Part shown: positions 17,277 through 46,601 of the stretch, piece after piece | How the letters are laid out: every line of letters begins with the position of its first letter | Position numbering within the stretch: the first letter of the stretch is position 1 | Source of the DNA: Gemmatimonadota bacterium | Lineage (GTDB): Bacteria; Gemmatimonadota; Gemmatimonadetes; Gemmatimonadales; GWC2-71-9 | Assembly (NCBI GenBank): GCA_003221005.1 | Contig: QHTZ01000070.1 | Location: forward strand, 1 to 61,919 | DNA length: 61,919 nt | Reading direction: 5' to 3' | The notes under the pieces: generated by a model | The model's database searches: none | What the model was told of the DNA's origin: nothing | The model's input: only the letters and a program-made list of their open reading frames with translations | Made by a program: the position numbers and the translations under genes

Positions 17277-19357
17277 TCAGTCCGTCGCGGCTTCGGCGGC
17301 GGGGGCGGCGTGGGCCTCCTTGAACTTGATCGGCTCGGCCCAGAACCCGGCGCAGAAGTCGCCGAACGCGCGCGCCCGGTCCAAGATCTCGCGCGCGGCC
17401 GCCTCTCCCGGCTCCGCGCGCTTCAGGCGCGCGAACTCCCCTGACAATTCGCTCCACGAGCCGCCGGTCTGTCCGGAGAGCACGAAGATGTTTTCGAACT
17501 CCCACAGCGCCTGCTCCGGTGTGAACGGGTCCACCAGCCGGCGATAGAGCGGGACCCGCGCGGCGGCCGCCGCCGCCTCGTACCCGGCGAAGATCGCGGC
17601 GCCGAACTCCTTGTGCGCGAAGTACGCCTCGGCGCGTGCCCCCAGTCCTGATAGAAGGAGGGGTCCGCTTCGAACGTCGGCACGGAGCGCAGCGGCTCGA
17701 GGGCCTCCTTGAGACGCGCCTCGCCCAAACGCGCCATGCACGCAGTGAAGTCCTCGCCGTCCTGCCGCTCACTCTCGAACAGCCCGAGCAAGGTCTGCAA
17801 CACCCTGACGCAGTTCTTCGCGGGATACTTGCCCATCACTTCGCCGATCTGCGCCCGGTCGAGGCCGATCCGGCCGCCCACGAACAGGAGGTACGAAGGC
17901 ACCGTGCGCTTATCCTCGGTCATGGCCGCGCTGTGAAAGCCGACGTCGGCGACGGCGTGCTGGGCGCAGCCGTTCGGGCATCCGGAAATCTTGATCCTGA
18001 GGGTACGCGCCAGCTCGCGATATTGCGCGAGCTCACCCCCGTCCTCGAGCGCGGCCGAGAGCGCCGAGCCGAGGCCCTTCGCCGAAGCGATGCCGAGACG
18101 GCACGTGTCGGCTGCGGGGCAGGTGGTGATGTCCTCGATCGTCTCGGCGCCGGGATCGCCGAGCTCGATGCTGCGGAGGGCGTCGTATAGGTCGGGCAGC
18201 TCGTCCTCGCGCACCCAGGGCAGATAGAAATTCTGGTCGACCGCAATGCGTGCCTCGCCCGCCGAGTAGCGCCGCACGACCTCGGCGAGCTTGCGGAGCG
18301 GATCGCTCAGGATGTCCCCTAACCGCAGCCGGACGTTGACACCCTTCAGTCCCGGGATCTTGTGGGGCACCACGGAGTCGCGGTACCAGCGACGGTATTC
18401 GGGCCGCTCGGTGCGCGGATCGCGCACCGGGAGTCCGGCACGCGGCGGAACCTCGAAGGGCTGGTGAACCTCCTGTACATCCTCGGGCGGGAAGGGGATC
18501 GGACCGACGTGCTGGCGCTCGAGATCGAGCGCTTCGCGAAACCGCGGCCACCCCATGGCCTGCACCAGGAACTTCATGCGCGCCTTCATACGGGACTTGC
18601 GCTCGCCGTAGCGGTCGAATACCCGCAGGATGGCGGCGGCGAAGTTGTACATCTCCTCGACTGGGAGGAAGTCGGTGTACTCGTGCGACAGCATCGGCGC
18701 CCCGCCCATCCCGCCCGCGACCTGGATCTTGAAGCCGCGCCGCTCACGGCCGTCATCGGAACGGACCTGCGCGATGAACCCGATGTCGTGCAGCCGTACG
18801 GCCGAGTGGTCCTCGGTGCAGCCTTCGAAGGTGATCTTGAATTTCCGCCCCAGCACTTGGTTGTGGTCGTTGCGCACGAGATAGCGGAACAGGGCGTGGG
18901 CGTAAGGGGCGACGTCGAACACCTCGGTGGGCGACGTCCCCGAGCGGTAGCAGGCGGTGATGTTGCGGACGGTGTTGCCGCACGCCTCGCGCGTCGTGAT
19001 GCCCGCCGCCGCGAGGAAGCGCATGAGGTTCGGCGCTTCTTCGAGCTTGAGGTAATAGATCTGCACGTCTTCGCGCGTGGTCAGGTGCAGGAATCCCGAG
19101 CCGAAGCGTTCGGCAGCGTCAGCCAAGGTGACGAGCTGGTCGGCTGAGAGGACGCCTCCCGGGATCTTGATGCGCTGCATCTGCACGCCTTCCTGGCGCT
19201 GGGCGTACGTGCCGAACTGCAGCCGCAGCTTCTGCATCTTGACTTCGCCCAGCTCGCCCCGGCGGTACTGCTTGATCTCCTCTTCGTAGAGATCGAGCTC
19301 CGCCGCGATGTGGTCAGGGAGCGGTGCGGTAGGTGCGACGCGATCGATCGCGGTCAT
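17277..19357 (-). pseudogene. assimilatory sulfite reductase (ferredoxin type) split by a +/-1 frameshift near 17639-17643
   Basis: Frame 1 (17423..19357) has TCRLGIASAKGLG and KISGCPNGCAQHAV siroheme/4Fe-4S motifs; the C-terminal continuation ARAEAYFAHKEFGAAIF... is in ORF 17277..17741. Confidence 0.85.
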
Positions 19358-19370
19358 AGATCCAGTTCCT

Positions 19371-20792
19371 TCAGGCTTCGATGAGCACTTCGGCGTGCGC
19401 AGCGGCGAGCTTCCCCAGCCGCTCCCGCACGGTGACCACTTCCCCTACCACCAAGGTGGCCGGGGACTCGAGGCGCGCCTCGCGCGCCAGGGCCTCGATC
19501 GTGGCGAGCGTGCCGACCACGGCACGCTCCTCGGGGAGCGTGGCGCTCGCGATCACCGCGGCGGGCGTGTCGGGCCTCGCGCCGTGGGCGAGGAGCCGGG
19601 CGGTGATGTGGGACAGCCCCCGCAACCCCATCAGAAACACGAGGGTGGGGATGCGTGCCAGCGCGTTCCAATCGAGGTCCGACTCCCCTTCACATTCGTG
19701 CCCTGCGGCCACGGCAAACGCCGAGGCAAACCGGCGGTGTGTGACCGGGATCCCCACCGCTCCGGGAGCGGCGATAGCCGAGCTGACCCCCGGAATCACC
19801 TCGAATGGAACGCCGGCGGCGTGCAGCGCCTCGCCCTCTTCGGCGCCGCGGCCGAACACGAACGGATCGCCCCCCTTGAGCCGCGCCACCACCCGTCCCT
19901 GACGCGCCAGCGCGATCAGGACGTCGTTCGTCTTCTCCTGGTCGATCGAGTGCCCGTCGGCCCGCTTGCCGACGAAAATCCGCTCGGCCCACGGCGCCGC
20001 CCGCTCCACGAGCGCGGGATGCACGAGGCGGTCGTACACCACGACGTCCGCAGTGCGCAGCACCTCGAGCCCGCGCACGGTGACCAGCCCCGGATCGCCG
20101 GGCCCGGCGCCCACGAGGTACACCATCCCACGCGGCGGCGACTCTGCCACGTCGCCCGACGCCGCGCGCGCCACGAGCTCGTCGATCCGCCGGCGGGCGC
20201 CCGCGACGTCGCCACGGCGCACGTACTCCACCGCGTCCGAGTCCACGATCTCGTACCACAAGCGCGTGCGCACTTTCTGATCGGGGACGCGCGCCGCCAC
20301 GGCGGGCCGCAGCTCGCCCAGCAGATCAAGGAACTCGGCGTCCGCCCGGCCGATCAGCGCCCGGATACGCTCGCGCAACCGCACCGCGAGCGCCGGGCTC
20401 TTCCCGGCGGTGGAGACGGCGACCGCGATGTCTCCCGCCCGGTGGATCGCGGGAGCGATGAAGCTGCAGTGAGGGAGGTCGTCCACGGCATTGAGGAGGA
20501 TGCCGCGCTGCTCCGCTTCCGCCCAGACGTCCGCGTTAGCACTCCGATCGTCGGTCGCCGCGATCGTGAGGAAAGCGCCCTCGAGGTCGCCGCGCTGATA
20601 TGCGCGCCGCCGCACCGCGATCGCCCCGGTCGCTGCCAGATCCTCGAGCTTCCAGGTAAGCTCGGGGCTCACCACCGTCACGCGCGCTCCTGCCTCCAGC
20701 AGCCCTACGACCTTCTGCTCCGCGATAGCGCCGCCGCCCACGACGACGGCGTGCCGCCCCTGGAGGTTCAGGAACACCGGATAGAAGCTCAT
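19371..20792 (-). CDS. cysG: siroheme synthase (precorrin-2 dehydrogenase fused to uroporphyrinogen-III C-methyltransferase)
   Basis: FLNLQGRHAVVVGGGAIAEQKVVGLL and VYLVGAGPGDPGLVTVRG, RLKGGDPFVFGRG. Confidence 0.93.
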   Translation of the reverse strand: MSFYPVFLNLQGRHAVVVGGGAIAEQKVVGLLEAGARVTVVSPELTWKLEDLAATGAIAVRRRAYQRGDLEGAFLTIAATDDRSANADVWAEAEQRGILLNAVDDLPHCSFIAPAIHRAGDIAVAVSTAGKSPALAVRLRERIRALIGRADAEFLDLLGELRPAVAARVPDQKVRTRLWYEIVDSDAVEYVRRGDVAGARRRIDELVARAASGDVAESPPRGMVYLVGAGPGDPGLVTVRGLEVLRTADVVVYDRLVHPALVERAAPWAERIFVGKRADGHSIDQEKTNDVLIALARQGRVVARLKGGDPFVFGRGAEEGEALHAAGVPFEVIPGVSSAIAAPGAVGIPVTHRRFASAFAVAAGHECEGESDLDWNALARIPTLVFLMGLRGLSHITARLLAHGARPDTPAAVIASATLPEERAVVGTLATIEALAREARLESPATLVVGEVVTVRERLGKLAAAHAEVLIEA

Positions 20793-21472
20793 ACCTTCAC
20801 CGTGAAGGTGTGGAGACCGCATTCGGTCTTGCCCATGCCGCTCCAGCGGCCCGCCCGCTCCGGCTCGCCCGGCCGCGTGGCCCGGGTGCACGGCCAGCAT
20901 CCGATGCTCGTGAACCCCTGGTCCAGGAGCGGGTGGTAGGGAATGTCCTGCTCCCGGATGTAGCGCCACACGTCGTCGCGCGACCACCCCGCGAGGGGGA
21001 ACACCTTGACGATGGGGTGCCCGTTCGCCTGGTGGTACTCGAGGATGTCGAGGCCGGCCCGGGTGTCGCCCTGGTCACTGCGCACCGCGCTGATCCAGGC
21101 GTCAAAGCCCCCGAGCGCGCGCTGCAGCGGCTCGACCTTGCGGATCCAGCAGCAGTGGTCGGGATCGGTGCGGTACAAGGGGCCCGGGTCAGTGGCCGGC
21201 CGCAGCTCGACCAGGTTGAGCCCGTATCGCTCGGCGAACTGATCCTTGAACGCTAGGGTCTCGGGGAAGTGGAAGCCGGTCTCGAGGAAGAGCACCGGGA
21301 CCCTGCGGTCGATGCGGCTCAGCATGTGCGCCAGCACGACGCCGCCGCCCCCAAAGCTCACGGTCAGCGCCGCGCGCTCCGGGAACGTGGCGACGGTCCA
21401 GGCCACGATCCTCTCGGGCGTCACGCCGCGCAGTTCCGCCGCTCGCTCCCGCACCGCTGCTGCGTTAAGCAT
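20789..21472 (-). CDS. cysH: adenylylsulfate (APS) reductase, Fe-S type
   Basis: SFGGGGVVLAHML, LETGFHFPET, CC...GCWPCTRA and GKTECGLH cysteine motifs. Confidence 0.92.
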   Translation of the reverse strand: MLNAAAVRERAAELRGVTPERIVAWTVATFPERAALTVSFGGGGVVLAHMLSRIDRRVPVLFLETGFHFPETLAFKDQFAERYGLNLVELRPATDPGPLYRTDPDHCCWIRKVEPLQRALGGFDAWISAVRSDQGDTRAGLDILEYHQANGHPIVKVFPLAGWSRDDVWRYIREQDIPYHPLLDQGFTSIGCWPCTRATRPGEPERAGRWSGMGKTECGLHTFTVKV

Positions 21473-21576: not shown

Positions 21577-21613
21577 AAAAACACGAGCCCGCTTCCGATC
21601 GCGGGAAGCGGGC
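21577..21613 (-). terminator. Rho-independent terminator (attenuator) in the cysH leader
   Basis: Minus strand GCCCGCTTCC-CGCGATCG-type loop-GGAAGCGGGC then TCGTGTTTTT. Confidence 0.8.
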
Positions 21614-21646
21614 CCGATGCGCGTTGCACTCGTCAGCTACTCGTCC

Positions 21647-21757
21647 TTACGTCCGATTGCCTCCGGACAGTGCGCCGCCACCGTGTCCGCTCCCCAGGGA
21701 GCGAGCACACATACAGCAGGCCTTACAACACACGGTTGTGGCGCAGGTACGAGGCAT
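21647..21757 (-). CDS. cysteine-rich leader peptide MPRTCATTVCCKACCMCARSLGSGHGGGALSGGNRT
   Basis: Cys codons at positions 5,10,11,14,15,17; between a promoter and a terminator upstream of cysH. Confidence 0.8.
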   Translation of the reverse strand: MPRTCATTVCCKACCMCARSLGSGHGGGALSGGNRT

Positions 21758-21786
21758 TGATCCGGTTCTAAAGTGGCTGAGGGGGA

Positions 21787-21815
21787 ACGCTATCACGGAA
21801 GGGGGATGGTGTCAA
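21787..21815 (-). promoter_or_regulatory. predicted promoter of the cysH leader
   Basis: Minus strand TTGACA-17 nt-TAGCGT. Confidence 0.6.
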
Positions 21816-44864: not shown

Positions 44865-44957
44865 ATGAGCGTGCTCGTCGTCCTCAGCCTCCTGCTGGTG
44901 CTCCTGCTGCTGGGAACCATTTCCCAGGAGGAGTCTGCGGCGCGCGCGACGGGGTAG
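44865..44957 (+). CDS. Leu/Val-rich leader peptide MSVLVVLSLLLVLLLLGTISQEESAARATG
   Basis: 9 Leu, 4 Val and 1 Ile in 30 codons; between promoter and terminator upstream of leuA. Confidence 0.8.
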   Translation: MSVLVVLSLLLVLLLLGTISQEESAARATG

Positions 44958-44993
44958 CATGAGTCGCTGAAGTCAGGAAAACAGCACAGTCCC

Positions 44994-45027
44994 AACGCCG
45001 CGGACCCCGATAGGCCGCGGCGTTTTT
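44994..45027 (+). terminator. Rho-independent attenuator terminator upstream of leuA
   Basis: AACGCCGCGG-ACCCCGATAGG-CCGCGGCGTTTTT. Confidence 0.92.
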
Positions 45028-45047
45028 CGTCCGAGGAGAAACCAGGA

Positions 45048-46601
45048 ATGGAACGAGACGTCGTCATTTTCGACACGACTCTGCGGGACGGCGAGCAGGC
45101 GCCGGGCAACTCCATGACGCCCGAAGAGAAGCTGCGGCTGGCCCGCCAGCTGGATGTGCTCGGTGTCGACGTCATCGAGACCGGGTTTCCGGCCGCCTCG
45201 GACGGTGACTTCCGGGGGGTGCGGGGGGTGGCGCAGGAGGTGCGGCGGCCGGTCATCGCGGCGCTCGCCCGCTGCCACGAGCGCGACATCGACCTCGCCG
45301 GCGAGGCGCTGCGCCCGGCCGAGCGGTCCCGCGTCCACGTGTTCATCGCGACCTCCGACATCCACCTGCAGCACAAGCTGCGGATCGATAAAGACGAGTG
45401 TCTCGAGCGGGCGCGCGCTTCGGTGCGGCGGGCGCGGCAGTTCACGAACGACGTGGAGTTCTCCGCCGAGGACGCGAGCCGCAGCGACCTCGACTTCCTG
45501 TGCCGCATCGTCGAGGCGGCGATCCAGGAGGGAGCGACCACGATCAATCTCCCGGACACCGTGGGCTATGCGATGCCCTCCGAGTATGGCGCCATGTTCC
45601 GGAGGGTGCGGGAGCGGGTGCCGAACAGCGACAAGGTGGTGTTCAGCGCGCACTGCCACGACGACCTGGGGCTCGCCGTGGCGAACTCGCTCGCGGCGAT
45701 CGACGCGGGCGCGGGGCAGGTCGAGTGCACGGTCAACGGCATCGGCGAGCGGGCCGGGAACGCCGCCCTCGAGGAGATCGTGATGGCGGGGCACGTGCGC
45801 CCGCAGGCCGTCGCGTTCCGCTGCCGCATCAACACCCGCGAGATCTTCCGCACGAGCCAGCTCCTCTCCCACGTCACCGGCGCGTTCCCCCAGCCGAACA
45901 AGGCGGTCGTCGGGCGCAATGCATTCGCGCACGAGGCGGGGATTCACCAGCACGGCGTGATGCAGAACGGCCTCACCTACGAGATCATCCGGCCCGAGAC
46001 GGTGGGCGTCCCGCGCTCTACCCTCGTGCTCGGCAAACACTCCGGGCGGCACGCGCTGGAGCGCCGGTACCGCGAGCTGGGCTATGAGCTCGACGAGCCG
46101 ACGCTCGAGTGGCTGTATCGCGAGTTCACGTCACTCGCCGACCGCAAGCAGGAGATCCTGGACGAAGACCTGCTTGCGCTGCTGCACGAGAGCTTCCACG
46201 ACGCGCCCGAATCGTATCAGCTCACGTACCTTAAGGTGCTGTGCGGGACGGTGTCCGCCACCGCGGACGTCACGCTGACGGGCCCCTGGATGCGGGAGCG
46301 GAGCCTGAGCGGCACCGGCAACGGCCCGATTGCGGCCGCGTTCGCCGCGATCAGCTCGATCGTCGAGCGGCAGATCGAAGTGCTGAACCTGTCGCTCCAG
46401 TCGGTCACGCCGGGGCGTGACAGCGTGGGGCACGTTTTCCTCCAGGTGAGAATCGACGGCAAGACCCTCACCGGACACGGAGCGTCGACCGACGTCGTCG
46501 AGGCGAGCGCGCGCGCCATGGTGCACGCGCTCAACAAGGCGAACTTCGCCGACCGGCTCGAGGATAAGTCTCTCAACAACGTGTACCTGTGGGGGGTGTG
46601 A
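45048..46601 (+). CDS. leuA: 2-isopropylmalate synthase
   Basis: FDTTLRDGEQAPGNSM, HCHDDLGLAVANSL, NGIGERAGNA. Confidence 0.95.
   Translation: MERDVVIFDTTLRDGEQAPGNSMTPEEKLRLARQLDVLGVDVIETGFPAASDGDFRGVRGVAQEVRRPVIAALARCHERDIDLAGEALRPAERSRVHVFIATSDIHLQHKLRIDKDECLERARASVRRARQFTNDVEFSAEDASRSDLDFLCRIVEAAIQEGATTINLPDTVGYAMPSEYGAMFRRVRERVPNSDKVVFSAHCHDDLGLAVANSLAAIDAGAGQVECTVNGIGERAGNAALEEIVMAGHVRPQAVAFRCRINTREIFRTSQLLSHVTGAFPQPNKAVVGRNAFAHEAGIHQHGVMQNGLTYEIIRPETVGVPRSTLVLGKHSGRHALERRYRELGYELDEPTLEWLYREFTSLADRKQEILDEDLLALLHESFHDAPESYQLTYLKVLCGTVSATADVTLTGPWMRERSLSGTGNGPIAAAFAAISSIVERQIEVLNLSLQSVTPGRDSVGHVFLQVRIDGKTLTGHGASTDVVEASARAMVHALNKANFADRLEDKSLNNVYLWGV

Follow-up and report, generated by a model that had tools for sequence, protein, structure and literature searches.

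The DNA analyzed here, referred to as the window, is a stretch of 61,919 nucleotides from a member of the Gemmatimonadales, the same order as Gemmatirosa kalamazoonesis (G174) although a different family. The question that it raises is what controls the operon cysH-cysG-sulfite reductase on its minus strand, which is separated from an oppositely directed aspartokinase gene by a leader. In this leader a preliminary description, made from the letters of the sequence, had recognized a promoter, a small open reading frame (sORF) rich in cysteine codons, and an intrinsic terminator that could pair in alternative ways. Based on the comparative data presented below, we propose that the leader is very probably a cysteine-codon, ribosome-mediated transcription attenuator of this operon.

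The leader and the operon behind it

The elements on which the proposal is built, and the genes that they would control, are as follows.

21787–21815, minus strand: putative promoter TTGACA-17-TAGCGT, with TTGACA at 21810–21815, TAGCGT at 21787–21792, and a 17-nt spacer
near 21779–21781, minus strand: predicted transcription start, about 22–24 nt ahead of the sORF
21647–21757, minus strand: leader sORF of 36 codons with six Cys in the first 17, recognized from the sequence and from relatives with a Cys-rich sORF at the same place
21707–21745, minus strand: Cys codon block, codons 5–17 (TGC, TGT, TGT, TGC, TGT, TGT), the proposed stall region
21697–21703, minus strand: region 1, CGCTCCC, the 5' arm of the protector hairpin 1:2
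21687–21695, minus strand: region 2, GGGGAGCGG, the partner of region 1 or region 3
21603–21611, minus strand: region 3, CCGCTTCCC, the antiterminator partner and part of the 5' arm of the terminator
21577–21616, minus strand: intrinsic terminator 3:4, with the stem at 21584–21616 and TTTTT at 21577–21581, kept in all aligned leaders
20789–21472, minus strand: cysH, (P)APS reductase, with which the controlled operon begins (NF002537, E 1.3e-73; TIGR00434, E 1e-59)
19371–20792, minus strand: cysG, siroheme synthase, whose start overlaps the cysH stop (NF007922 above cut-off, E 7.6e-137)
17423–19357, minus strand: third gene, a NirA/sulfite-reductase-type hemoprotein (NirA family, E 1.6e-76, below cut-off; assimilatory sulfite reductase, E 1.6e-42)

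The promoter, the sORF, and its count of cysteines had been given exactly in the preliminary description, and regions 1, 2, and 3 as well as the terminator with its T run lie where it had placed them on the minus strand. The –10 hexamer TAGCGT shares three of six bases with the consensus, which is why the promoter is absent from the promoter-scan list; TTGACA-17-TAGCGT or TAGCCT is found upstream of the leaders of genus g13, relatives of the window organism, and TTGACA-17-TAAATA upstream of the g4 and g7 leaders. The sORF translates to MPRTCATTVCCKACCMCARSLGSGHGGGALSGGNRT, in which codons 5, 10, 11, 14, 15, and 17 specify Cys. No Shine-Dalgarno sequence was seen ahead of it, and its ATG lies 29 nt from the predicted –10. 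In g4, g7, and g13 the start codon mostly follows the predicted –10 hexamer by 6–12 nt, so that many sORFs of these relatives are probably leaderless. The terminator stem comprises 13 pairs, 10 of them G-C; the terminator is located about 105 nt before cysH, and the sORF stop codon lies 37 nt past region 2.

A scan of both strands of the 62-kb window for Cys-rich sORFs with a terminator behind them returned, besides this site, a single weak one that is unrelated. The cysteine codons of the leaders are TGT in 185 and TGC in 88 cases (68% TGT) versus 9 and 42 in the genes of the window (18% TGT), a large contrast, although the leaders are non-independent samples. The leader as a whole folds only moderately better than its shuffles (z = –1.82), because the DNA is of high GC content, and folding of this weak significance was therefore dropped as an argument. 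An Rfam search of the leader region gave no family above its gathering score, SAM-II (RF00521) included.

The leader is present as a single copy in its own genome (G000, 141 contigs), according to an RNA model search, and the cysS and cysK-like loci of that genome carry no Cys leader. The window CysH shares the motifs CCxxRK and CxxC with APS reductases, and no match to an adenylylsulfate kinase (apsK) gene was obtained in G000; on these two grounds the enzyme may reduce APS directly. Elsewhere in the window, the stretch 44865–45047 (plus strand) holds a Leu/Val-rich sORF of 30 codons, MSVLVVLSLLLVLLLLGTISQEESAARATG, and behind it a terminator that begins at 44995; leuA, which has a LeuA_dimer domain, follows directly at 45048. 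This stretch is a probable leucine attenuator, and with such a Leu-rich leader and terminator before leuA in the same window, attenuation probably serves two or more pathways in this organism.

Occurrence across the class

CysH was found in 31 genomes in the order search and in 18 more in the phylum search, all of one class; three of these (G040, G204, and G379) were set aside for upstream sequence that was too short. In 45 of the remaining 46 genomes, a Cys-rich sORF with a T-run terminator heads the sulfate-assimilation operon, and the single exception, G255, has a SAM-II riboswitch in place of the Cys leader. None of 15 cysH loci outside the class has a Cys-rich sORF with terminator upstream. 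A strand control gave 42 sense versus 3 antisense matches, in 275 kb each. The first genes behind the leaders, as identified by profile search, are cysH, cysC, CysI, NirA, CysD, or TauE, all with sulfur functions.

Near relatives share the leader itself. Eight genomes of the family, with CysH proteins that are 73–76% identical, have the same leader ahead of cysC-cysH, consisting of a TTGACA promoter, an sORF of 32–37 codons with TGT-rich Cys codons, a hairpin of the CGCTCC..GGAGCG type, and then CCCGCTTCC..GGAAGCGGG with a T run. Genus g13 has a second leader type directly before cysH, with an ACCC motif and a different terminator (GCCCGCAGG..CCTGCGGGC TTTTT), in which the ORF ends in ..CCCM..TT*. 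In other families and orders, most CysH-positive genomes carry further leader types that cannot be aligned. The weakest case is that of Gemmatirosa, where the TGC codons alternate and the end of the sORF already forms part of the terminator; a tblastn search of plasmids with the Gemmatirosa CysH gave no match. In family f6 the leader lies 2–5 kb ahead of cysH, and from its position we infer that it heads the same operon. Separately, in Nitrospirillum (L015) an sORF, MACTCSCTPTCCASPCPTAS, is located at –2133 relative to cysH, and no terminator was found behind it.

Several lineages combine such units. A SAM-II riboswitch (RF00521) with terminator directly precedes the Cys leader in L058 (3760–3831), L059 (5903–5974, minus strand), and L068 (1882–1952), the last of which is Gemmatirosa kalamazoonesis; in all three, riboswitch and Cys leader stand in series before a cys operon. 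Another Gemmatimonadales genome has a lone SAM-II before cysH with no detectable Cys leader (L064, 1907–1980, minus strand). Two units of Cys-rich sORF plus terminator stand in series before the same sulfur operon in L095, L098, and L102, and L094 also has two, with a gene in between. A covariance model built from 13 leaders recovered the window, its relatives, and extra copies of the leader before sulfite reductase genes (L115, L116, L121, and L122) and a NirA-like gene (L118), these labels being taken from reading the translations, as well as before a Porin_O_P gene (L117) and a SusC-like TonB-receptor gene (L119), which suggests that the latter two genes serve the uptake of sulfur compounds. 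A leader heads nearly every sulfate-assimilation operon of the class, and additional ones precede genes for sulfite reductase, porin, and TonB receptor. We consider it reasonably probable that the class uses Cys-codon attenuation as a general switch of its sulfur regulon, and that certain lineages place two Cys attenuators, or SAM-II and a Cys attenuator, in series, so that methionine/SAM and cysteine status must both permit transcription.

Alternative pairings and the proposed switch

The pairings 2:3 and 3:4 both require region 3, and 1:2 and 2:3 both require region 2, so that they are mutually exclusive. Over 21 homologous leaders, 94.7% of the cells of the antiterminator 2:3 are paired, versus 42–65% when the arms are slid. 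Pair 43:165 is G-C in 15, A-U in 5, and G-U in 1 of these leaders, and pair 44:164 occurs as G-U, G-C, or A-U; the covariation score of 2:3 was reached by 4 of 500 shuffles, which do not remove kinship. The protector 1:2 is paired in 93.6% of cells over the 21 leaders, three of its pairs show changes in both partners, and it is broken in a few relatives; it should be noted that leader alignment A3 was made against a model containing 1:2 and 3:4. Covariation is modest in the close homologues because the pairing arms hardly vary, and the 13 closest leaders give it little power. The preliminary description had made its case depend beforehand on conservation of the Cys codons and pairings, and sORF, protector, antiterminator, and terminator are all kept in relatives.

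Beyond the alignable set, the leaders mostly keep an arm of their own that is complementary to their terminator, such as CGCGGCCGG with CCGGCCGC, CCCGGTGG with CCACCGG, and CGGGGCGGG with CCCGCCCCG. Shuffle tests of 2:3 in single leaders, in high-GC RNA, were mostly non-significant individually, and tests across clades were therefore used. For 18 clades, grouped by eye from their terminator arms and compared without phylogenetic correction, the own region had a mean fractional rank of 0.27 among foreign regions on the arm (z –3.4, Wilcoxon p 0.002). The 2:3 pairing is weak in g13.

In the proposed mechanism, the sORF would be translated and the leader would respond to cysteine through the ribosome. 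When Cys-tRNA is short, the ribosome would stall on the Cys codons and mask region 1, region 2 would capture the emerging region 3, the terminator would come too late, and the operon would be transcribed. When Cys-tRNA is plentiful, the ribosome would advance over region 2, or 1:2 would re-form behind it, and region 3 would then pair with region 4 to end transcription before cysH. With the sORF stop codon so far beyond region 2, in the cysteine-replete state region 2 must lie under the translating ribosome, or else 1:2 must form anew behind it. We modeled the stall with a ribosome that covers the RNA as far as 9 nt beyond the A-site codon, on a transcript that ends after region 3. In this masking model, a stall at any Cys codon gives a 2:3 probability of 0.75–0.99, and stalls at codons 18, 19, 20, and 21 give 0.84, 0.53, 0.17, and 0, respectively. 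In the full-length RNA, the terminator 3:4 is favored at equilibrium even with a stalled ribosome (P34 0.87–0.98), and read-through must therefore be kinetic, decided during transcription. Conversely, in ribosome-free RNA up to region 3, 2:3 is favored over 1:2 (0.98 versus 0.01), so that equilibrium does not explain termination in untranslated RNA. As 2:3 thus prevails without a ribosome until region 4 is made, the low-expression state needs either ongoing translation or a 1:2 hairpin that forms fast.

Three other explanations of the locus have to be weighed against attenuation. If the Cys-rich sORF encoded a functional small protein, for example a metal-binding one, with a terminator that only ends its transcript, then the conserved position and Cys content of the sORF would follow. 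We regard this as very unlikely, however, as leader types differ freely in non-Cys residues, length, start, and Cys count, and what stays invariant in homologues is the stretch behind the Cys codons that pairs in the RNA, third positions included; moreover, the 3' part mostly offers the terminator-complementary arm in a sequence that differs by clade, and the leaders precede sulfur genes. Hardly credible is a metabolite-binding riboswitch that drives the terminator beside an incidental sORF: SAM-II does precede cys operons in some relatives, but the window leader has no Rfam match above the gathering score and it is the Cys codons that otherwise unalignable leaders have in common.

The remaining explanation accepts a response to cysteine and assigns it mainly to translational coupling or Rho, as is thought for the mycobacterial polycysteine leaders, with the hairpin in a secondary role. 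Mycobacterial cys leaders do have Cys runs with no terminator (PMC1262725), and in Gemmatirosa (L068) the hairpin shares sequence with the end of the sORF and is near the start of cysH. In the window, however, the terminator has a strong stem and a T run well before cysH, a layout that recurs in nearly all relatives, and the conserved pairing involves the terminator arm. We therefore think this explanation unlikely, and ribosome-mediated attenuation at the terminator is the reading that we carry forward.

Significance and relation to known systems

To our knowledge, regulation in the Gemmatimonadota has been little studied. A rule at the level of sequence, which delimits the sulfur regulon and predicts charged tRNA-Cys as its signal, can be tested directly; the tandems of SAM-II and Cys attenuator would act on a single operon as a natural RNA gate with two inputs; the class-wide, unalignable leaders with kept 2:3 complementarity form a good data set on attenuator evolution; and the leaders supply sORFs of a type that gene callers tend to miss. 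Our literature search found no paper on leader-peptide attenuation in Gemmatimonadetes, which is no proof of absence. The kind of control proposed here, ribosome-mediated transcription attenuation with Cys codons, is known, and its use in this phylum and pathway is undescribed as far as our searches reach. What is new is the class-wide use, the tandem double attenuators, the SAM-II and Cys tandems, and the additional leaders ahead of genes for sulfite reductase, porin, and TonB receptor.

A precedent is uORFC-8-2 (PMC8632094), which stands before cysS in Rhodobacterales and joins a Cys leader to an intrinsic terminator. The preliminary description had regarded a terminator/antiterminator version as not commonly annotated in the lineage of the window, and uORFC-8-2 gives a Cys leader with terminator this precedent elsewhere. 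Both kinds of leader have a tandem-Cys sORF followed by a hairpin and U run, and for uORFC-8-2 ribosome-mediated attenuation by Cys-tRNA has likewise been proposed. They differ in that uORFC-8-2 precedes a cysteinyl-tRNA synthetase gene in alphaproteobacteria and has two tandem Cys codons, mostly UGC, in stem 1, whereas the Gemmatimonadota leaders precede sulfate-assimilation operons and have about 3–8 Cys codons, mostly UGU. The window leader lies outside uORFC-8-2, being upstream of cysH in Gemmatimonadales in a genome whose cysS lacks a Cys leader. In mycobacteria, leader ORFs with Cys runs and no conserved terminator hairpin have been predicted for cys operons (PMC1262725), and polycysteine leaderless sORFs are functional according to Canestrari et al. 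2020, as cited in PMC9094748. The Gemmatimonadota leaders resemble these in placing a Cys-run sORF ahead of cys operons, with a leaderless start predicted in g4, g7, and g13, and differ in having an antiterminator as well as a strong intrinsic terminator. Given the distance from its predicted –10 to the ATG, the sORF of the window is probably not leaderless.

The window leader also shares its plan with the attenuators of enterobacteria. The trp, his, and leu attenuators have control codons, a protector 1:2, an antiterminator 2:3, and a terminator 3:4 before biosynthetic genes. The same parts are found here, namely a Cys-rich leader ORF, a protector 1:2 adjoining the control codons, an antiterminator that excludes the terminator, and a terminator between the ORF and the first structural gene. 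The trp-type geometry of the preliminary description is borne out in its alternative pairings and departs from the exact trp layout in the sORF stop, which lies past region 2 and not between regions 1 and 2. The system further differs from trp, his, and leu in the amino acid, which is cysteine, and in the relatives of the window, where a second attenuator follows the first or a SAM-II riboswitch stands in front.
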